DNA of 61,483 nt, taken from Candidatus Rokuibacteriota bacterium (lineage in GTDB: Bacteria; Methylomirabilota; Methylomirabilia; Rokubacteriales; CSP1-6). Both the position numbers and the translations under genes were made by a program. The DNA lies in NCBI GenBank assembly GCA_016866775.1, contig VGLJ01000026.1, forward strand, positions 1 through 61,483. The letters are read 5' to 3'. Of this stretch, positions 28,544 through 52,082 are shown in pieces (within the stretch, counting starts at the first letter, position 1; each line of letters opens with the position of its first letter). The notes beneath the pieces are model-generated. The model saw only the letters and a program-made list of their open reading frames with translations, made no database searches and was not told the origin of the DNA.

Positions 28544-29407
28544 TTACAGGCTGGATCGGGGCGTGGCGAGGTCGAGGAGCGTGGGGATCGGCCGCCAGTA
28601 CCCGGCCTTCCGCGCGGCGAGGTCGAGGTGTGGCGAGCCCCAGTCCTCGACGACCGTCGAGCGGGCGTTCCAACGCTGACGGCGATCGATCTGCTTCACG
28701 TAGCCCTTGCAGCGCGTGCACGCCGAGATGAAATACGCCTCGTCGGCGCCGCCGGGCTCGAGGCGCGCCAGATCGCGCGGGCCGTCGGCGCCGCAGAGCG
28801 GACAGCGGACGCGCGAGAAGATCCACGTCCCCGCGCACAGATGACAGCCGAGCTGGAGCCGGCCGTCCTCGACGATGTCGCCGAAGCCGGGCGGCGCGCC
28901 GCAGAACGGGCAGACACCGAGCGCCCAGACGCCGTCGGTGGCGAGCGCGCGCGCCCCGCTCAGCGCCCAGGCGAGCGCCGGCCGGAGCCCGCCGTACGCG
29001 AGGAACGCGATCACCGCGGCGCGAATCCCCAGCCGCCGCGCCGCCTCCTCCCCGATCGCGCCGCGCGAGGGAAGGAACGCGCGGGGATCGAGGCGCCCTT
29101 CATCCCATTCATCGGCGAGCCGCCGCATCCCCGGGGCTTCGTCGGGCCGCACGGCGGTCACGGCTTCCATGGCGACCGCGAGGACGTCTTCGACGTCGAC
29201 CCGATCGATCTCGATCGCGGCTTCTCCAAGGAGCGGCACGCCGCGCCTCCACCGCTCTTCGCAGACAGGGCCATCCCACGCAGGCGGATCACTCGGCGGC
29301 GCCCACTGCGCCCAGGCGTCGACGATGAGCGTGTAGGGCACGAGGCTGGCGGCAAACACGCGCCTTCTCTCGAGCTGATCGTTCCAGTCATCGCGCAAAT
29401 CGATCAT
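28544..29407 (-). CDS. fdhE: Formate dehydrogenase accessory protein FdhE
   Basis: 287 aa. Cytoplasmic zinc/iron-binding factor for maturation of Tat-exported formate dehydrogenases. Four CxxC motifs lie in the C-terminal half: CPFCGAPP (about 166), CHLCAGTW (about 187), CPLCGADG (about 201) and CTRCKGYV (about 229), the rubredoxin-like knuckles of FdhE. ATG at 29407 is chosen; an in-frame ATG 20 codons upstream would extend the protein into the arm of the large inverted repeat. It follows fdhA-fdhB-anchor in the same direction. Confidence 0.92.
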   Translation of the reverse strand: MIDLRDDWNDQLERRRVFAASLVPYTLIVDAWAQWAPPSDPPAWDGPVCEERWRRGVPLLGEAAIEIDRVDVEDVLAVAMEAVTAVRPDEAPGMRRLADEWDEGRLDPRAFLPSRGAIGEEAARRLGIRAAVIAFLAYGGLRPALAWALSGARALATDGVWALGVCPFCGAPPGFGDIVEDGRLQLGCHLCAGTWIFSRVRCPLCGADGPRDLARLEPGGADEAYFISACTRCKGYVKQIDRRQRWNARSTVVEDWGSPHLDLAARKAGYWRPIPTLLDLATPRSSL

Positions 29408-29456
29408 CGGATCAGGTGGCAGCGCAGGGCGAGAAATGTCCGATCGGCAAGCGCAC

Positions 29457-29627
29457 GACGCTGGCAAGGCCGGGCCCGGTGGGGCGAGGGGGCGGTTGAC
29501 CTGTTTCCTTTCCTTCGCCTCGAGGCGGCGTCAATGCGCCAGATGGAAATAGCTGACGCCGGACCGGGCGCCGGCGGGTCAGGGGTCAGAGCCCCCTCGC
29601 CCCACCGGGCCCGGCCCTGCCAGCGTC
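29457..29627. repeat. Fold-back element: 37-base inverted repeats with one mismatch
   Basis: Arm 1 is 29457-29493 and arm 2 is 29591-29627; they pair with a single mismatch (A versus G). The 97-base interior has the palindrome GCCTCGAGGC (29517-29526) and no gene. The right arm reaches into the stop codon of the anchor-subunit gene. It fills the 218-base gap between that gene and fdhE. No clear target-site duplication is visible, so a MITE is possible but not shown; it could also be a strong processing or attenuation hairpin between structural genes and fdhE. Confidence 0.75.
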
Positions 29628-30495
29628 AGGCCTGGCCTGCCGCCATGACGACGTACTTGACGAGAAATCCGCCGACCAACACGAGCAACGCGGTCACCGC
29701 GCTCAGCGCGAGCGACGGCCGCTTGAGATCCGCGAGCCCGAGCAGCAGCGGCACGACGGTGCCGACGATGATGGCGCCGACCCAGAACGTCATCTTGAAC
29801 GGTCCGCTCAGCAGCAGCGCGAGCGCGCGATCGGAGGCGGCCGAGCCCGCGCCCTGCACCGCGACGATGAACACGACGATCGACAGCGCCTGGATCAGCA
29901 GCGCGAGCACGGTCATGCGCCGGATGGCCGTGGCGCCTTCGCCGGCCGCGCGGCCCGCGAGCGTGAGGATCAGCGCGATCGCCGCCGCGGCGGTCGACGC
30001 GCCCACCGCGAGGAAGAGCGCGCCGAGCGCGTGCCCGTTCGTCCACAGCGGACGCGCGGTCGCGCCGAGGAGCACGCCCGGGTACGCGGCGACGAAGAAC
30101 CCGAACACGCCGCCGATCACGCCCACGATGAGCTTCTGGTTCGAGAGGTTCTTGCGCTGCAGGTCCTCGATGAGCGTGAAGAGCGCCGCGAGGCCGACGC
30201 AGAGCCCGAACACCGCCAGGGCCCACGACCCCATGCTCATCGGCGACTGCGGGTTGAACGTCTTCATCATGTTGAGGAAGCGCCCCGGTACGCCGAGGTC
30301 GACGATGAGGATCAGCGGGCACGGGATGAGCGCGAGCAGCGCCACGTAATAGCCGGCGCGCACGACGTCGCGATAGAGCCGGCTCCCCACGAGGCCGGCG
30401 ACCGTCGCGATGACGAAGGCGCCCCCCGCGAGACCGCCGAGGAAGAAGTAGACGTCGATCAGGAACGGCCAGTGCGACGACTGCAGCAGAGACAT
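29626..30495 (-). CDS. NrfD-type membrane anchor of formate dehydrogenase
   Basis: 289 aa with about eight helices and no signal peptide. NrfD/PsrC landmarks: FFLGGLAGGAFVIATVAG (about 17-34), PCPLILIVDLGVPGRFLNMM (about 58-77, close to the quinol site in this family) and FNPQSPMSMGSWAL (about 80-93). It replaces the haem-b FdnI/FdoI subunit seen in enterobacteria, so electrons from FdhB pass to quinone without haem b. Starts 3 bases after fdhB. Confidence 0.9.
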   Translation of the reverse strand: MSLLQSSHWPFLIDVYFFLGGLAGGAFVIATVAGLVGSRLYRDVVRAGYYVALLALIPCPLILIVDLGVPGRFLNMMKTFNPQSPMSMGSWALAVFGLCVGLAALFTLIEDLQRKNLSNQKLIVGVIGGVFGFFVAAYPGVLLGATARPLWTNGHALGALFLAVGASTAAAAIALILTLAGRAAGEGATAIRRMTVLALLIQALSIVVFIVAVQGAGSAASDRALALLLSGPFKMTFWVGAIIVGTVVPLLLGLADLKRPSLALSAVTALLVLVGGFLVKYVVMAAGQA

Positions 30496-30498
30496 CGT

Positions 30499-31278
30499 CT
30501 AGCCCTCCTTCCCGTCGCCGCGGCTGCGGAACGCCATCAGCGCGCCGACGCCCACGAGGACCGCGGAGCCGATCGAGAGGAGCGAGTCGACGAAGATGTT
30601 CTTCTGCGGGAGCTTCGGATTGACCGGAAGACCGTACGTCTCGGGCTTGCCCAGCAAGAGGAAAAACGCGTTCAGGCCGCCGAGGAAGCCCTTCGAGTCG
30701 GCGCCATACAACTGCGCCTCCTTGAAGCCCATGCCCTTCAGGGTCTCGACGCGCTTCTGCGCCTTCACGACGAGGTCGTCACGGAACCCGAACTGGATCG
30801 ACTCGGTCGGGCACGCCTTCGCGCACGCGGGCCCGAGCCCGTTGTGGATGCGGTCGTTACAGAACGTGCACTTCGTCGCGGTGCCGGTCTGCTCGTTGAA
30901 GCTGACGACGCCGAACGGGCACGCCGACACGCAGTACCGGCAGCCGTTGCAGACGTCCTGGTTGATGTTCACCGTGCCGTGCTCGGTCCGGTAGATCGCG
31001 CCGGTCGGGCACGCGTTGAGACAGCCGGCGTCCGCGCAGTGCTTGCAGACGTCGGACATGAGGAGCCACGCGAGATCGCCGTTCGGCGCGGCACCCGGCG
31101 CCTCGAAGAAGCGCACGAGACGGAACGTCTTGTCGGTGAAGTGCGTGTGGTTCTGGTAGGAGCCGGTCCAGTCCGGCACCTCGGGGCCGAGCTCGTTCCA
31201 CTGCTTGCAGGCCACCTGGCACGCGCGACAGCCGATGCAGAGCGAGGTATCCGTGAACATCGCGAGGGTGCGGGCCAT
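30499..31278 (-). CDS. fdhB: Formate dehydrogenase iron-sulfur subunit
   Basis: 259 aa. Four ferredoxin-like Cys clusters: CIGCRACQVACKQW (about 14-27), CKHCADAGCLNACP (about 77-90), CNGCRYCVSACPFG (about 109-122) and CTFCNDRI with CAKACPTES (about 136-160). A single C-terminal membrane helix (about 228-250) anchors it, as in FdnH. It carries electrons from FdhA to the NrfD-type anchor. Lies 2 bases after fdhA. Confidence 0.95.
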   Translation of the reverse strand: MARTLAMFTDTSLCIGCRACQVACKQWNELGPEVPDWTGSYQNHTHFTDKTFRLVRFFEAPGAAPNGDLAWLLMSDVCKHCADAGCLNACPTGAIYRTEHGTVNINQDVCNGCRYCVSACPFGVVSFNEQTGTATKCTFCNDRIHNGLGPACAKACPTESIQFGFRDDLVVKAQKRVETLKGMGFKEAQLYGADSKGFLGGLNAFFLLLGKPETYGLPVNPKLPQKNIFVDSLLSIGSAVLVGVGALMAFRSRGDGKEG

Positions 31279-31280
31279 GA

Positions 31281-34200
31281 CTACACCACCCCCTTCTTCA
31301 CGTTGCAGAGGAAGGCCTTCGTCTCCTGGATGTAGACGTTGGGATCTCCCACCGTGGCCGAGAGGTCATTGGTGATGTCGCCCTTGCTGCCGGGCAGCTC
31401 CGGCACGCCGTTGAAGCCCCAGTGCCACGGGACGCCGATCTGGTGGACGGTCTTGCCGTCGATCTTGAACGGCTTGAAGCGGTTCGTGACCATCGCGGTC
31501 ACGTGGACTTTGCCTCGGGGGCTCATGACGGTGACCTTCTCGCCGTTCTGGATGCCGAGCTCCTTGGCGAGCTCGTGGCTCAACTCCGCGAAGTGCGAGT
31601 GGTGCAGCTCCGCGAGCATCGGCAGGTACCGCGACATGACGCCGGAGAGGTGGTGCTCCGTGAGCCGGTACGTCGTGATGACGTACGGGTAATCGGGCGA
31701 GCCGACCGGGGCGAGCGGGTTCTTGCCCTCCGCCACGTCCCAGACCTTCGCCACGGGGTTCGTCTGGCGCTTCGAGAGGAGGTTCTTCGTGGGTGATTCC
31801 ATCGGCTCGTAGTGCTCCGGGAACGGCCCGTCGTTGAGCGGTCCGAAGAACGCGCCGACGAGGTCCGCGCGCATGATGAACGGCTTGTCGCCGTTCTTCG
31901 CGGCCGGATCGAGGAACGGGTTGAAGTCCGGCACGTCCATGCCGACCCACTTGCCCTTCTTGTCGGGCTCGTTGCCCGGGGCCTCGTGGTCCCACCAGAT
32001 GAGCTTCTTCTTCTCGCTCCACGGCCGGCCCGCGAGGTCCGCCGACGCGCGGTTGTAGATGATGCGGCGGTTGGCCGGCCACGCGAAGCCCCAGCCGTGA
32101 CCGAGGTAGTCCTCCTTGGTCGCCGGCTTGCGCGAGGCGGTGCGGTTGACGATCTTGCCGTCCTTGTCCTCGACGATCGCGCCCGTGTAGATCCAGCAGC
32201 CCGAGTTGGTCTTTCCGTCGTCGGTGAGGTGCGCGAACGTGTTGAGCGGCTGGCCCTTCTTGTAGACGACCTTGCCGTCCTTGTCCTTGATCTCCTCGGT
32301 CGCGACGCCGTTGACTTCTTTCAACACCTCGACGATGTCGGGGTGCTCGGCCTTCTCGCCGTACTTGAAGTTCGCGGCGAGGAAGCCCTTGTCGCGCTCC
32401 TTCTTCGAGCCGGCATAGAGCTTCTGCAGCCGGATCGCGAGACGGCAGAAGAAGTCGGCGTCCGACGTGCAGTCACCCGGCGGCTTGACGGCGGCGTCGT
32501 GCCACTGGATCAACCGCATCGTGTTGGTGAGCGACCCGTCCTTCTCGGCCGCCGGGGCCATCGGCAGGAAGAAGACCTCGGTCTTGACGTCCGACGGCTT
32601 GGTGCCGGGGGCCTTCCAGAACTCGGCCGTCTCCGTGAGGAAGATGTCGGCAACGACCATCCACTCGAGCTTCCCCATGGCGGCGCGGGCGAGCTTGGCG
32701 TTCGGGCCGCCCACCGCCGGGTTCTGCCCGTCGGCGAGAAAGCCCTTGAGCTTGCCGTGGAACATGTCGACGAACATGTGCTGGTGGCTGTACGCGTCCG
32801 CGGAGGCGCGCTTCGGCAGCCACTGGTAGCCGAACTCGTTCTCCTTCGTCGCGGCGTCGCCGTAGAACGCCTTGAGCAGGCTCACCATGAACTTCGGCCG
32901 GTTCGTCCAGAACCCGCCTTTCGGCGTCTCCTTCTCGAGGTACGTCTTCAAATCCGGATGCGCGTCGCGCAGCGGCATCGGCAGGTACCCGGGCAGCTCG
33001 TGGTAGAGCAGCTCGAGATCCGTCGCGCCCTGCACGTTCGCGTGGCCGCGGAGGGCGACGATGCCTCCGCCCGGCCGGCCGATGTTGCCGAGGAGGAGCT
33101 GCAGCATCGCCAGTGCGCGGATGTTCTCGACGCCGTTGGTGTGCTGCGTGAGGTTCAGCGCGTAGGTGATCGTGCCGGTCTTGTCGGGACCGGAGTTGCC
33201 GCAGAAGAGCTTCGAGATCTCCTCGAACCGCGCCTTCGGGATGCCGCACACGCGCTCGACCATGTCGAGCGTGTAGCGCGAGTAGTGCCGCTTCAGGAGC
33301 TGGAAGACGGTCTGCGGGTCCTTGAGCGAGTTGTCACGCTTCGGGTTGCCCTCGGCGTCGAGCTGGTACTTCCAGCTCGACCGGTCGTAGCTCTTCTTCG
33401 ACTCGTCCCAGCCCGTGAAGAGCCCGTCGAGGTCGGTGGGCGTCTTGAACGCGGGGTCGATGAGGAACGCCGCGTTCGTGTAGTGGACGACGTAGTCCTT
33501 GAAGAAGAGGTTGTTCTGGATCGCGTAGTTGATCATGCCGCCGAAGAACACGATGTTCGTGCCCGAGCGGAGCGGCGCGTGGATGTCGGCGGCCGCGCTG
33601 GTCCGCGTGAAGCGCGGATCGACGTGGATGAGCTTCGCTCCGCGCTCCTTGGCCTTCATCACCCACTGGAAGCCCACCGGGTGGTTCTCGGCCATGTTCG
33701 AGGTCGCCATGATGACATCCGAGTTCTGGATGTCGATCAGGTTGGTCGTCATCGCCCCGCGCCCGAACGTGGTCCCCAAAGCTGGGACCGTGGCGCTGTG
33801 TCAGACCCTGGCCTGATGCTCGTGGTAGACGATCCCGAGGGTGCGGTTCAGCTTCGACAGGAGATAGCACTCCTCGTTGTCGATGCAGGCCGAGCCGAGG
33901 GAGCCGATCGCCTCCAGGCGGTTGACGACGACCTCCTGGCCGTCCTTGTTCTTCTCTTTCTCGATGAAGTACTTCTCGCGGGTGTCGTAGTAGCGCTTGG
34001 CGATCTGCTCGTACATCCACTCGAGCGGCTTCTCCTCCCACTTCTCGGCGCCGGGCGCGCGATAGAGCGCCTTGGTGGGACGGAGCGGGTTGTTCGAGAG
34101 CTGGATGGTGGCCGCGCCCTTCGGGCACAGGCGGCCGAGGGTGTGCGGTGTGTCCGGATGCCCTTCGATGTCGATGATCTTGCCGTCCTTGGCGAAGATC

Positions 34201-34376
34201 AGCTGCCCGCACCCGACCGCGCAGTACGGACACACGCTGGCGACGGCCTTCGCCTCCTTGATCTTCAGCGCCGTCGTCGCGGCTTCGACGGGCGTCCAGT
34301 CGACGCCGGTCCCGGCCGCCACGCCCGCGGCGCTCGCGGTCCCGAACTTCAGGAAGTCACGTCGCGACAAGCTCAT
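31281..34376 (-). CDS. fdhA: Selenocysteine-containing formate dehydrogenase, catalytic subunit
   Basis: 1031 aa when the in-frame TGA at 33801-33803 is read as selenocysteine (residue 192). Tat signal with twin Arg (MSLSRRDFLKFGTASAAGVA, about 1-20) exports it. One [4Fe-4S] cluster: CPYCAVGCGQLIF...CPKG (about 49-85). Around the UGA the protein reads YHEHQARV-U-HSATVPALGTTFGRGAMT, matching the active-site strip of Sec formate dehydrogenases, where Sec binds Mo/W and the next His takes part in catalysis. Both halves continue the same molybdopterin domain, so this is one gene, not a frameshift. A hairpin follows the UGA (separate entry). Mo/W-bis-MGD, periplasmic formate oxidation with quinone as acceptor is the likely reaction. 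Confidence 0.95.
33771..33803 (-). promoter_or_regulatory. fdhA: UGA selenocysteine codon and SECIS-like hairpin in fdhA
   Basis: UGA at 33803-33801; eleven bases later a perfect 6-bp stem GGUCCC/GGGACC with a seven-base loop (AGCUUUG) at 33789-33771. The distance from UGA to stem is the same as I recall for E. coli fdhF. The selA, selB and selC genes needed to read it are not in this window. Confidence 0.85.
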
Positions 34377-34407: not shown

Positions 34408-34689
34408 TCAGAATTCGGGACTGGTCAGCTCTTCCCACACGCGCCGCACGACGACGATGCGCTCGGGGCGCGACGGCGTGCCGCCGTCGAGCCGCACGAT
34501 GTCGCCCGCGTTCAAGCCGTCGAGGCCGCCGCGCGCGTTCTCGTCGCTGACGACGACCGTCTGCTCGCCGCACGAGAGATCGCTGCAGACGTCCGCCGCG
34601 CCCTTGACGCGAACGCGACGACTGGAAGGATCCACGGCGACGACGATGAGGCGGTTCTGCTGAAGCCAATCGGTGAGGCTCTGGGTCAT
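34408..34689 (-). CDS. Uncharacterised 93-aa protein heading the fdh operon
   Basis: First gene after the fdh promoter and 31 bases before fdhA. ATG at 34689 has a strong GAGGAGGTG ribosome site. It begins MTQSLTDWLQQNRLIVVAVD, has two Cys in VCSDLSCGEQ (about 34-43) and a beta-rich rest (QTVVVSDENA, AGDIVRLDGG, ERIVVVRRVWEEL) that could be a small OB- or SH3-like barrel. No signal peptide or membrane helix. I do not recognise a family; the place suggests an assembly or regulatory partner of the formate dehydrogenase. Confidence 0.75.
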   Translation of the reverse strand: MTQSLTDWLQQNRLIVVAVDPSSRRVRVKGAADVCSDLSCGEQTVVVSDENARGGLDGLNAGDIVRLDGGTPSRPERIVVVRRVWEELTSPEF

Positions 34690-34736
34690 GGCCGCACCTC
34701 CTCGATAGGTACGGAAAGCTTTTGCACGTGGCCGGA

Positions 34737-34766
34737 ACAATACGAGTGGTCCGACCGGCAAGTCAA
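34737..34766 (-). promoter_or_regulatory. Sigma70-like promoter of the fdh operon
   Basis: TTGACT (34766-34761), 18-base spacer, TATTGT (34742-34737). Predicted start near 34730, 5' UTR about 40 bases. The spacer contains the TGGTCCGACCGG operator-like site. Confidence 0.75.
34747..34758. promoter_or_regulatory. FadR/PdhR-type operator candidate in the fdh promoter
   Basis: TGGTCCGACCGG, with the palindromic core GGTC-C-GACC, lies between the -35 and -10 boxes. The same 12-mer, apart from the central base, lies at the start site of the oxalate promoter (56835-56846). GntR/FadR-group proteins are known to bind TGGTnnnACCA-like palindromes. A protein bound here would block RNA polymerase. Confidence 0.5.
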
Positions 34767-34802: not shown

Positions 34803-35162
34803 CTACAGGTCGGAGCGATCGAGGCCGTCGTCGATGCCGCCGCGGTACCTTTCGAGGCAGGTCCGAACGAGCGCCTCGGCCTCCCTCTTTGCTCCCCGGG
34901 AGAGGCAGTCGGCGACCCGGCGACGGGTGGCCAGGTCGACGATCGGGGCGTTCGTCAGCGCGTTGTAGTAGCGGCCGAGGTCGAAGAGGAGGCGGTCGAC
35001 CCGGGCGGGTTCGTCGAGGCGGGCGAAGACCTCGCGGAACACGTCGATCGCCCAGTCCTCGCGCTTGTTGCCCTTGTCCCTGAACCGGCGCCCGTACGCT
35101 CGCGCTGCGACGTCCTCGTCGCGCGCCGCGACGTCCGGGTCGCCCGGCGGCTCCTCATTCAC
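34803..35162 (-). CDS. Uncharacterised 119-aa helical protein after fdhD
   Basis: GTG start at 35162 overlaps the fdhD stop by 8 bases. The protein is charged and helical (AYGRRFRDKGNKREDWAIDV, FDLGRYYNALTNAP, RRRVADCLSRGAKREAEALV) with no signal or membrane segment. I do not recognise a family. Coupling to fdhD and its place upstream of the fdh promoter suggest a role in formate dehydrogenase maturation, which is only a guess from context. Confidence 0.65.
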   Translation of the reverse strand: MNEEPPGDPDVAARDEDVAARAYGRRFRDKGNKREDWAIDVFREVFARLDEPARVDRLLFDLGRYYNALTNAPIVDLATRRRVADCLSRGAKREAEALVRTCLERYRGGIDDGLDRSDL

Positions 35163-35928
35163 CGGGTGCCCCGATCCCGGCGGTCAGCGCGACGGCGGAG
35201 CCAGCATAGACGTTGAGGCTGTCGGGCCGCACGTAGCCGCAGATCGTCACGTTGAGCTGCTCGGCCAGCGCCACCGCCATCTCGGTCGGCGACGTCCGCG
35301 AGGCGACCACGGGCACGCCCATTCGCGCCGCCTTCAGCAGCATCTCCGACGAGACCCGCCCCGTGGACAGCAGGATCCGGTCCTCGGTCGGGATCCCGCG
35401 GAGAAGCGCCTCGCCCTTCACCTTGTCGACCGCGTTGTGGCGCCCGACGTCCTCGGCCACGACGAGCAGGCGGCGCTCGTCGGCGAGCGCGGCGCCGTGG
35501 ATGCCGCGCGACTCCTTGTAGTGCACGGCGGCGGCGAAGAGCTCCTTCATGCGCTGTGACACGTCACGCGGCTGGACGCGCACCCCCGAGTGCAGGCGGG
35601 GGAACAGGCGGTGATCGATCCGGAAGGTGATGCCTCCGCCACAGCCCGACGTCAGGATGCGCTCGGTCGGGAGCTCCACCGGCCCGCGGAGCGTGACGTC
35701 CGCGCGGCCGTCGACGGGTGACACGCTCACGCCGGCCACGTCGTCGAGAGCCTGGATCACCTTCTCCATCCAGAGATAGCCGACGACGAGCGCCTCGAGC
35801 TTCATCGGCGAGCACAACAGCGTGAGGAACCGATCGCCGTTGACGTAGACGGTGAGCGGCTGCTCGCGGACGACTTCGCCCGTCACCTCTTCGACGTGAT
35901 CGGCACGGACCCTCAGATAGCTGCGCAT
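35155..35928 (-). CDS. fdhD: Sulfurtransferase FdhD
   Basis: 257 aa. Hands sulfur from a cysteine desulfurase to the bis-MGD cofactor of formate dehydrogenase. Seen: EQPLTVYVNGDRFLTLLCSP (about 22-41), PTERILTSGCGGGITF (about 86-101; here the mobile loop has one Cys where E. coli FdhD has a C-x-x-C pair), VAEDVGRHNAVDKVKGEALL (about 158-177) and LSTGRVSSEMLLKAA (about 188-202). Substrate enzyme is encoded about 0.8 kb downstream. Precedes the 119-aa gene with overlap. Confidence 0.94.
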   Translation of the reverse strand: MRSYLRVRADHVEEVTGEVVREQPLTVYVNGDRFLTLLCSPMKLEALVVGYLWMEKVIQALDDVAGVSVSPVDGRADVTLRGPVELPTERILTSGCGGGITFRIDHRLFPRLHSGVRVQPRDVSQRMKELFAAAVHYKESRGIHGAALADERRLLVVAEDVGRHNAVDKVKGEALLRGIPTEDRILLSTGRVSSEMLLKAARMGVPVVASRTSPTEMAVALAEQLNVTICGYVRPDSLNVYAGSAVALTAGIGAPGE

Positions 35929-43104: not shown

Positions 43105-43698
43105 CTAATCTGCGAAGCCGACCACACGCGGATCATCCACGGGGCGCGGCCGCTTGGGCTGTTCGACCTTGCGCGCGGCCTTCGTCTTCGGCCCGCGCGT
43201 GATGGCGACCTTTCCGGTCCGGACGATCTCCTGGATGCCCATCGGGCGGAGCAGCTCGATGAGCGCTTCGATCTTGCCCTCGTCGCCGGTGGCCTCGAGG
43301 ATGAAGGAGATCGGCGTGACGTCGACGACCTTCGCGCGGAAGATGTCGACCGTCCGCAAGATCTCCGCGCGGTGCTGCGGCTCGGCGTTCACGCGGATGA
43401 GCACGAGCTCGCGCTCGACGTGGCGGTCGTCCGTGAGGTCGCTCACCTTGATGACGTCGATCAGCTTGTGGAGCTGCTTCGTCACCTGCTCGATGATGAA
43501 CTCGTCGCCGGTCACGACCAGCGTCATCCGCGAGACCGCGGGGTCGAGCGTCTCGCCGACCGAGAGGCTCTCGATGTTGTAGCCGCGCGCGGAGAAGAGG
43601 CCCGCCACGCGCGACAGCACGCCGAAGCGGTTCTCCACGAGGACCGAGATCGTGTGCTTGCGCGGCTCGCCGCTTCCGCTGCCGTTGCTCGTGCTCAT
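43105..43698 (-). CDS. ilvN: Acetolactate synthase regulatory (small) subunit
   Basis: 197 aa. N-terminal ACT domain ([20 protein letters not shown], about 15-34; [12 protein letters not shown], about 39-50) binds valine for feedback, and the C-terminal ACT-like half ([17 protein letters not shown], about 121-137) contacts the large subunit. Extended basic tail (about 165-197, [16 protein letters not shown]) is unusual. Separated from ilvB by a two-hairpin repeat. Confidence 0.94.
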
Positions 43699-43706
43699 CA
43701 GATCGC

Positions 43707-43770
43707 TCGGAGGGGGCTACGCCCCCTTCCGAACCTCCCCCTCGGATTGCGCCGGCGAAGCCGGCGCTCG
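43707..43770 (-). repeat. Two-hairpin intergenic element between ilvB and ilvN (divergent family member)
   Basis: In the direction of the genes: hairpin GCGCCGGC/GCCGGCGC, then GGGGGAGGTTCGGAA, then hairpin GGGGGC/GCCCCC. This is the same order (hairpin, G-run with TT, G-rich hairpin) as the A repeats, with other sequence. A stem next to the ilvN ribosome site could set the subunit ratio. Confidence 0.65.
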
Positions 43771-43773
43771 AAC

Positions 43774-45534
<1,761 letters not shown>

Positions 45535-45555
45535 GTCCTCCTGGAACCGCGCCCG

Positions 45556-48255
45556 TTAGCCATGCGACATCGCGTCCCGTTCCTTGATCCGGGCCTGCGC
45601 GGCCGCGAGGCGCGCGATCGGGATCATGAACGGCGAGCACGACACGTACGTCATCCCCACGCGATGACAGAACTCCACCGACGACGGCTCGCCGCCGTGC
45701 TCGCCGCAGATCCCCACCTTGAGCTCCGGCCGCGTGCGGCGGCCGCGCTCGATGCCGATCCTCACGAGCTCGCCCACGCCTTCCTGGTCGAGCACCGAGA
45801 ACGGATCGGCGGGCAGCAGACTCTTCTGCAGGTAGTCCGGCAGGAACTTCGCCACGTCGTCGCGGCTGTAGCCGAACGTCATCTGGGTGAGGTCGTTGGT
45901 CCCGAACGAGAAGAACTCCGCGTGCTCGGCGATCTGGTTGGCGATCAGCGAGGCGCGCGGCACCTCGATCATCGTGCCCACCGCGTACTTCACGGGCACG
46001 CCGGTCTCCGCCACCACGCCGTCGGCGATGCGCTTGGTCTTGTCGTACGTGAGCCGCATCTCGCCGATCGTGCCCGTGAGCGGGATCATGATCTCGGGCT
46101 CGACGCGCCCGCCCTGGTCGGCGACCGTGCACGCCGCCTCCATGATCGCGCGCACCTGCATGCCGTAGATCTCGGGGTGCGTGATCCCGAGGCGGCAGCC
46201 GCGGTGGCCGAGCATGGGATTCGCCTCGCGCAGCTTCTCGACGGTCGCGATCAGCGCGTCGAGCCGCGGGCGCCGGGCGGCGTCGATCCCGAGCGCGTCC
46301 ATGCGCGCGCGCTCCTCGACCAGCTCCGTGTACTCCTTCCAGTTCGGCAGGAACTCGTGGAGCGGCGGGTCGAGCAGGCGGACCGTCACGGGCAGCCCGT
46401 CCATCGCCCGGAAGATCCCGATGAAGTCCTCGCGCTGGAACGGCAGCAGCTTCGCGACCGCCGCGCGGCGCGCGGCGTGATCCGGCGCCATGATCATCTC
46501 GCGCACGATCGCGATGCGCTCGGGCGCGAAGAACATGTGCTCGGTGCGCACGAGGCCGATGCCCTCGGCGCCGAACTCGCGCGCCTTCGCGGCGTCGTGC
46601 GGCGTGTCCGCGTTGGCGCGCACCCCGAGCGAGCGGCGCTGGTCCGCCCACGCGAGGAACTCCTTGAAGGCGCCGCTCAGCTCGGGCTGGACCGTCTCGA
46701 TCGCGTCGCGCAGCACCTCCCCGGTGCTGCCGTCGAGCGAGACCATCTCGCCCTCGCGCACGATCACCCCGTGCGCCTCGCACTGCCGCCGCTCCTCGTC
46801 CACCACCACGTCGTGCGCGCCGACCACGCACGGCTTGCCCATGCCGACGGCGACCACCGCGGCGTGCGACGTGCGGCCGCCGCGCGCCGTGAGGATACCT
46901 TCCGAGGCGTACATGCCCGCGATGTCCTCCGGCGACGTCTCGGGGCGGACGAGGATGACCTTGTGGCCGGCCTTCGCGCGCTCGACCGCGGTGTCCGCGT
47001 CGAACACCACCTGCCCCACGGCCGCGCCCGGCGCCGCGGGAAGCCCCTGCGCGAGCAGGCGGCTCTGCGCGATCGCGCGGGCCTTCTGCGTGTCGTCGAA
47101 GCGCGGGTGCAGGACCTTGTTGAGGTCGGCCGGACGCACGCGCAGCAGCGCGGTGTCGCGGTCGATCACGTGCTCGTGGACGAGATCCACGGCCACGCGC
47201 ACCGCGGCCTCGGCCGAGCGCTTGCCCGCGCGCGTCTGCAGGAGATAGAGCGTGCCTTCCTGCACCGTGAACTCGATGTCCTGCATGTCCTTGTAGTGGC
47301 GCTCGAGGCGGTCGGCGATCGTCACCAGCTCGTCGTACGCGGCGGGCATGCGCGCGTGGAGCCCGTCGATCCCCTCGGGCGTGCGGATGCCGGCGACCAC
47401 GTCCTCGCCCTGCGCGTTCGCGAGGAACTCGGCGTAGAACCGCGGCTCCCCGGTCCGCGGGTCGCGGGTGAAGCCGACGCCCGTGCCCGACGTCTCGCCG
47501 AGGTTGCCGAACACCATCGCCATCACGGTGACGGCGGTGCCCCAGTCGCCGGGAACGCCGTGGATGCGCCGGTACTCGATGGCCTTCTTCACGAACCACG
47601 AGTCGAACACCGCGCGCACCGCGAGCTCGAGTTGCCGCTCGGGCTCCTGCGGGAACGGCGCGCCGGTGCGCTCCTGCACCAGGTCCTTGAACGTCTGAAC
47701 CAGTTTTCGCAGCTCGATGGCGGGGATCTCGGGATCGGTCTTCACGCCGAGGCGCGCCTTCATCGCCTCGAGGTGCTCGTCGAACGCCTCGCGCTTGATG
47801 TGCAGCACGACGTTGGCGAACATCGTGATGAAGCGGCGGTAGCAGTCGAGCGCGAACCGCTCGTTGCGCGTCCACGCCGCGAGGCCTTCCACCGTCGCGT
47901 CGTTGAGGCCGAGGTTGAGGACGGTCTCCATCATCCCGGGCATCGAGACCCGGGCGCCGGAGCGAACGGAGACGAGCAGCGGCCGCTTGGTGTCGCCGAA
48001 CGTGAGACCCGCCGCGCTCTCGAGCTTCTCGAGGTTCTCGAGCGCCTGGTCCCAGAGCCCGTCGGGAAGCCGGCGATCCTGCCGCGTGTACTCCGCCCAC
48101 GCTTCGGTGGTGATCGTGAAGCCCGGCGGCACCGGGATGCCGAGGTTCGTCATCTCGGCGAGCTCGCAGCCCTTGCCCCCGAGGAGGTTGCGCATGAGGG
48201 AGGAGCCTTCCGCCTTGCCGCCACCGAAGAAGTAGACGAGTTTCGCTGTGGGCAT
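45556..48255 (-). CDS. ppdK: Pyruvate, phosphate dikinase
   Basis: 899 aa. Interconverts pyruvate + ATP + Pi and PEP + AMP + PPi. N-terminal ATP-grasp domain (GGKGCELAEMTNLGIPVPPG, about 26-45; SVRSGARVSMPGMMETVLNL, about 95-114), the phosphohistidine domain with GGRTSHAAVVAVGMGKPCVV (about 464-483; the His carries phosphate), and the PEP/pyruvate barrel ending in the catalytic cysteine (YVSCSPFMIPIARL, about 870). ATG at 48255 is used with GGAG 4 bases before; the open frame upstream is not coding. As first gene of the ilv-leu run it may set the pyruvate supply. Confidence 0.96.
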   Translation of the reverse strand: MPTAKLVYFFGGGKAEGSSLMRNLLGGKGCELAEMTNLGIPVPPGFTITTEAWAEYTRQDRRLPDGLWDQALENLEKLESAAGLTFGDTKRPLLVSVRSGARVSMPGMMETVLNLGLNDATVEGLAAWTRNERFALDCYRRFITMFANVVLHIKREAFDEHLEAMKARLGVKTDPEIPAIELRKLVQTFKDLVQERTGAPFPQEPERQLELAVRAVFDSWFVKKAIEYRRIHGVPGDWGTAVTVMAMVFGNLGETSGTGVGFTRDPRTGEPRFYAEFLANAQGEDVVAGIRTPEGIDGLHARMPAAYDELVTIADRLERHYKDMQDIEFTVQEGTLYLLQTRAGKRSAEAAVRVAVDLVHEHVIDRDTALLRVRPADLNKVLHPRFDDTQKARAIAQSRLLAQGLPAAPGAAVGQVVFDADTAVERAKAGHKVILVRPETSPEDIAGMYASEGILTARGGRTSHAAVVAVGMGKPCVVGAHDVVVDEERRQCEAHGVIVREGEMVSLDGSTGEVLRDAIETVQPELSGAFKEFLAWADQRRSLGVRANADTPHDAAKAREFGAEGIGLVRTEHMFFAPERIAIVREMIMAPDHAARRAAVAKLLPFQREDFIGIFRAMDGLPVTVRLLDPPLHEFLPNWKEYTELVEERARMDALGIDAARRPRLDALIATVEKLREANPMLGHRGCRLGITHPEIYGMQVRAIMEAACTVADQGGRVEPEIMIPLTGTIGEMRLTYDKTKRIADGVVAETGVPVKYAVGTMIEVPRASLIANQIAEHAEFFSFGTNDLTQMTFGYSRDDVAKFLPDYLQKSLLPADPFSVLDQEGVGELVRIGIERGRRTRPELKVGICGEHGGEPSSVEFCHRVGMTYVSCSPFMIPIARLAAAQARIKERDAMSHG

Positions 48256-48290
48256 GAGTCTCCGTCCACGAGGACCGAAAAAGTCTTTCG

Positions 48291-48320
48291 ATCCTACAGG
48301 ATGGCCCACACCCCCGTCAA
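48291..48320 (-). promoter_or_regulatory. Sigma70-like promoter directly upstream of ppdK
   Basis: TTGACG (48320-48315), 18-base spacer, TAGGAT (48296-48291). Predicted start near 48284, 5' UTR about 29 bases. This would let the ppdK-ilv-leu run be transcribed without passing through the terminator at 48397-48432. Confidence 0.6.
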
Positions 48321-48326
48321 TTGAAG

Positions 48327-48359
48327 GTCCGGGCCCCCGGGCTTCGCCACGCCCGGACC
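48327..48359 (-). other. GC-rich hairpin upstream of the ppdK promoter
   Basis: Arms GGTCCGGGC and GCCCGGACC pair perfectly over 9 bases with a 15-base loop. No T-run follows, so it is not a standard terminator. It lies between the upstream intrinsic terminator and the ppdK -35 box. Confidence 0.55.
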
Positions 48360-48396
48360 CGCCCCTTCCCACTGCGCTCATTCGGTCTCCCGTGTC

Positions 48397-48432
48397 AAGA
48401 AAACAAAAGGCCACGGATCGCCACCCGTGGCC
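48397..48432 (-). terminator. Intrinsic terminator after the Leu-rich small ORF
   Basis: Stem GGCCACGG/CCGTGGCC (48432-48425 with 48416-48409), 8-base loop, then TTTTGTTTTCTT (48408-48397). This is the clearest rho-independent terminator in the window. Its 5' arm can instead pair with the 3' arm of the hairpin just upstream. Confidence 0.85.
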
Positions 48433-51620: not shown

Positions 51621-52082
51621 TCAGTACCCGAGCCAGGCTTCGAGCGGGCCCTTCGGCAGCGGCACGAGGAACCACCGCTCGAAGATGAGGAAGGTCACGA
51701 GCGGCATGCCGGCGCCGAGCACGAGCACGAGCCACCACGCGTGCCGGCCGATCCACCGCATGTAGAGGCCGATGTAGACGGCCGACGCGACGTAGAGGCC
51801 GATCACCTGCGTCGCGACCACGAGCCCCGCCGCGGGGACGAGCACCTTCAGCACCGGCGCGGCCTGCGCGCGGGTGAGGAAGGTGCCGTGGTCGCCGCGG
51901 CGGAGGGCCTGCGCCGCGATGGCGACGCAGGCCGCCATGGCGGCGACACCGAGCCAGAACGGAAAGAAGCCGCTCGCCGGCCCGTCGGTGCTCCACCCGA
52001 TGCCCAGCCGCAGGGCGTCGGCGACGACGAGGCCGGCCAGCCCGAACAGGACGAACGCGGTCGTGAGCTCGGCCGCGCGCAT
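51621..52082 (-). CDS. tctB: Tripartite tricarboxylate transporter, small membrane subunit TctB
   Basis: 153 aa with four hydrophobic helices (about 7-25, 37-57, 77-97, 115-135). Sequence is weakly conserved in the family; FPFWLGVAAMAACVAIAAQA (about 41-60) and a helix near LVVATQVIGLYVASAVYIGL are typical. The place between tctC and tctA settles the call. Confidence 0.88.
   Translation of the reverse strand: MRAAELTTAFVLFGLAGLVVADALRLGIGWSTDGPASGFFPFWLGVAAMAACVAIAAQALRRGDHGTFLTRAQAAPVLKVLVPAAGLVVATQVIGLYVASAVYIGLYMRWIGRHAWWLVLVLGAGMPLVTFLIFERWFLVPLPKGPLEAWLGY

Follow-up and report, generated by a model that had tools for sequence, protein, structure and literature searches.

Organisation of the fdh locus

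The window analysed here is the whole stretch of 61,483 nucleotides of contig VGLJ01000026.1, from a Candidatus Rokuibacteriota bacterium (assembly GCA_016866775.1). On its minus strand lies a formate dehydrogenase locus, in which fdhA is preceded by fdhD and two small ORFs, and followed by fdhB, an NrfD-type subunit and an FdhE-like protein. The features, in the order of transcription, are as follows.

35155-35928, minus strand: fdhD, accessory protein (FdhD/NarQ; PF02634, E 6.3e-69)
31281-34376, minus strand: fdhA, predicted Sec-containing formate dehydrogenase alpha subunit (1031 aa, with Sec as residue 192 and an N-terminal TAT signal)
33801-33803, minus strand: UGA codon predicted to be read as selenocysteine (TGA in each of 15 full-length genes, those of close relatives and the window's own; at known Sec sites in alignments)
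33771-33789, minus strand: putative SECIS hairpin GGUCCC-AGCUUUG-GGGACC (fold -9.9 kcal/mol; invariant codons across Sec-type genes, the rare CCA and GCT among them)
30499-31278, minus strand: fdhB, 4Fe-4S electron-transfer subunit (Fer4_11, Pfam; also behind fdhA in relatives)
29626-30495, minus strand: NrfD-type membrane subunit (PF03916, E 3.7e-35)
28544-29467, minus strand: FdhE-like accessory protein (PF24860, E 3.1e-4, which falls short of the curated cut-off; kept near fdhA in relatives)

The fdhA frame starts with ATG at 34376 and ends with a TAG stop at 31281, and its 1031 codons are open except for a single in-frame TGA at 33803-33801. The sequence-only reading had described exactly this arrangement of two same-frame ORFs separated by one TGA, together with the flanking residues HQARV-U-H, which are indeed present. 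It had also expected gene calls to split the gene. ORF calling with Table 11 does return two ORFs, and this expectation holds for naive callers only: if the UGA is a Sec codon, a caller that treats every UGA as a stop cuts fdhA in two.

Elsewhere in the window, a 1655-aa ORF (43133-48100) partly coincides, in a different frame of the same strand, with two coding segments that score well (43774-45555 and 45556-48432).

Protein family and reading of the UGA

Translated through the UGA, FdhA matches TIGR01553 (formate dehydrogenase-N alpha) over residues 3-1028 with 1172.5 bits (cut-off 814.2), both ORF halves matching as one protein, and contains a TAT signal followed by molybdopterin Fe4S4, molybdopterin oxidoreductase and dinucleotide-binding domains. 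The closest solved relative is the alpha subunit of the tungsten formate dehydrogenase of Desulfovibrio gigas (PDB 1h0h), which belongs to the same family (residues 33-1028, E 7.6e-278) and whose modified residue X (Sec) falls on the fdhA UGA (HQARI-X-HSATV versus HQARV-U-HSATV). The D. gigas enzyme is soluble, whereas the window fdhA is accompanied by an NrfD-type membrane subunit. E. coli FdnG (FDH-N) is ∼43% identical to the window FdhA and has TGA at the same codon, but its operon encodes FdnI where the window has the NrfD-type subunit. Candidatus Rokuibacteriota MAGs supply all the nearest named relatives of FdhA, with identities of about 76-86%.

Codons were compared between 15 distinct full-length Sec-type genes (window included) and 15 Cys-type genes. 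The codon at the Sec position is UGA in all 15 of the former and TGC or TGT in all 15 of the latter, which are paralogues, and no residue other than Sec or Cys occurs at this predicted metal-ligand position. The Cys-type FdhA proteins of Rokubacteria (such as those of loci L064, L070 and L075) are 60-64% identical to the window FdhA; their genes differ in having TGC/TGT at the Sec site and in lacking the conserved hairpin codons described below. In a quick tree, the Rokubacteria Sec-type genes (16 rows) group with support into a single clade, whose sister is a Cys-type clade of the same phylum (18 rows). Both types occur within about 15 kb of each other in L064, and no full-length Cys-type copy of fdhA was found in the genome to which the window belongs. 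Conversion of Sec to Cys was the common direction for FdhA in a survey (PMC1794560).

A stop codon within the frame is also what a pseudogene would show, had an ordinary formate dehydrogenase suffered a nonsense mutation. The TGA is nevertheless located at the catalytic residue and fixed in all close relatives, and amino acid conservation is equal on its two sides (0.814 and 0.815), which refutes decay of the gene and leaves this explanation with a negligible probability. The sequence-only reading had named as a counter-case related strains with a stop and then unrelated sequence; instead, all close relatives have TGA and then the same protein.

Two separate genes abutting at a true stop would resemble a second same-frame TGA pair in the window, at 51621-51623, which proved to be an ordinary gene boundary, with TctB (PF07331) before it and TctA (PF01970) after it. 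The fdhA stop, by contrast, is spanned unbroken by a single protein family, and the part downstream of it has no start codon until 33779; the full-length match refutes a gene boundary here, and hardly any weight can be given to it. Genome-wide reassignment of UGA to an ordinary amino acid occurs in some bacteria but is very improbable in this one, being refuted by ordinary stop use (TGA terminates many of the window's coding segments), by the presence of a tRNA-Sec with anticodon TCA and by the alternation of only Sec and Cys at the fdhA site.

fdhA is thus very probably an ordinary Sec formate dehydrogenase gene (probability about 0.98), with UGA as the codon of the active-site Sec, presumably read through by SelB and Sec-tRNA(Sec). 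The analysis turned up nothing that contradicts this reading; the one feature that does not fit the usual pattern is the apical loop of the hairpin, described below.

Neither of the small ORFs that separate fdhD from fdhA (34408-34761 and 34803-35162) has a Pfam match, but most fdhA loci, whether Sec-type or Cys-type, contain relatives of them, and the two probably encode FDH-linked proteins. The NrfD-type subunit (29626-30495) has ∼40-43% identity to its counterparts in the closest Sec-type loci, but 51-56% to those in most Cys-type loci and 61-64% to those in L057 and L078. Since FdhA and FdhB show much greater similarity than this membrane subunit does, the latter may have been exchanged.

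The hairpin downstream of the UGA

The 6-bp GGUCCC/GGGACC stem that had been predicted to begin 11 nt past the UGA is present, enclosing a 7-nt loop (AGCUUUG). Its folding energy is not exceptional when compared with shuffled sequences (45 nt; z -1.68), and random synonymous recodings reach an equally good fold in 16% of cases, so that folding energy alone is weak evidence for the hairpin. What distinguishes it from chance is instead the conservation of rare codons. All 15 Sec-type Rokubacteria genes share the same codons at positions +3, +4, +5, +6, +7, +9 and +10 counted from the UGA, CCA and GCT among them; at +8 (Leu), 13 genes have TTG and two have CTG. In eleven gene stretches of the window, CCA provides only 1.4% of the Pro codons, GCT 1.5% of the Ala codons and TTG 4.1% of the Leu codons, and the fixation of these three is therefore not a matter of codon preference.

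From +4 to +11, the mean pairwise codon identity among Sec-type genes is 0.95, compared with a gene-wide median of 0.71; only 4 of 515 sliding windows reach 0.95, two of which (offsets +3 and +4) are the hairpin stretch itself. For the Cys-type genes the corresponding value is 0.57 (median 0.63), although the peptide is nearly the same. The Sec-type genes share ancestry and do not represent independent events, making the contrast between Sec and Cys types the better control. These codon patterns indicate that the hairpin is under constraint at the RNA level.

The hairpin was checked by hand against the limits of a bacterial SECIS model as quoted in PMC13188914. In that model, the loop has 3-9 nt and lies 16-37 nt from the UGA, the upper stem has 4-16 bp, the energy is at most -7.5 kcal/mol, and a G occurs within the first two loop positions, while a G[G/U] loop core is usual and not required. 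The fdhA hairpin lies within all the hard limits (7-nt loop, 6-bp stem, 17 nt from UGA to loop, -9.9 kcal/mol, G at loop position 2). The G[G/U] core has no match in its loop, where G is followed by C. In distant relatives, L085, L091 and L096 among them, the sequence at this place is GGUCUG; the difference is accompanied by one in the protein, Pro-Ala-Leu here replacing the Pro-Gly-Leu or Ala-Gly-Leu of those relatives. The E. coli fdnG hairpin likewise begins 11 nt past the UGA but differs in sequence and in its apical loop; an alternative bulged-U fold in the fdnG register is possible for the window gene and is less stable (-4.6 kcal/mol). An Rfam scan of the window gave no family match.

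Selenocysteine machinery and significance

The sequence-only reading had further predicted that the organism carries selA, selB, selC and selD, and a complete genome lacking selABC would have counted against it. All four were found in the genome (5.13 Mb, 97.5% complete), with profile scores of 592.3 bits for selA, 380.8 bits for selB and 335.5 bits for selD, and a tRNA-Sec (selC) of 70 bits with anticodon TCA. The genes selC, selA and selB are located side by side in that order on one strand of a single contig (C43). On another contig (C31), selD (L011:1501-2445) contains an in-frame TGA (ASCAG-U-ASK) with an 8-bp hairpin downstream (loop GAUC), and from these features selD is itself predicted to be a selenoprotein gene. 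In the selD of L136 the hairpin is kept with different stem bases; these hairpin comparisons draw on clearly located selD sites.

Among 60 relatives, selA is present in 57, and the best selD match has the TGA in nearly all, the listed exceptions being partial or second copies; Sec use is therefore general in the class. A tRNA 2-selenouridine synthase (TIGR03167) is absent from the genome at E 0.001, and selenium here thus appears to serve Sec and not selenouridine.

Neither of the two selenoprotein-gene hairpins has the common G[G/U] core in its loop, which is AGCUUUG in fdhA and GAUC in selD. It is conceivable, though we consider it unlikely, that the SelB of Rokubacteria reads such loops; if it does, the rule for SelB-RNA recognition would be shifted in these bacteria.

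In the proposed mechanism, SelB carrying Sec-tRNA(Sec) would bind the hairpin just past the UGA, and ribosomes would read through codon 192 with insertion of selenocysteine, which would coordinate the Mo or W centre. Together, FdhA, FdhB and the NrfD-type subunit would form a periplasmic, membrane-attached formate dehydrogenase of this Rokubacteria-type bacterium. What the present analysis shows is the open frame, the conservation of its UGA, the constraint on the hairpin and the presence of the insertion-machinery genes. That the UGA is actually read through, that Sec binds the metal, and that the enzyme oxidises formate and is exported are inferences from the mechanism known in bacteria.

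Among bacterial selenoproteins, FdhA and SelD are the most frequent, and the finding at fdhA is thus an ordinary one; a formate dehydrogenase gene split by UGA is a well-known arrangement in bacteria, and its recognition here is correct. A limited literature search found no paper with Rokubacteria Sec as its subject. A Methylomirabilota MAG with 63 predicted selenoprotein genes is mentioned in PMC13188914, so that Sec use in the phylum is already on record.

For annotation, the consequence is that the capacity for formate oxidation in these uncultured soil and groundwater bacteria can go unnoticed, or appear split, when every UGA is taken as a stop. The Sec clade and its Cys counterpart, which contrast sharply in codon constraint, offer a clean natural comparison for the effect of a SECIS element on coding sequence.
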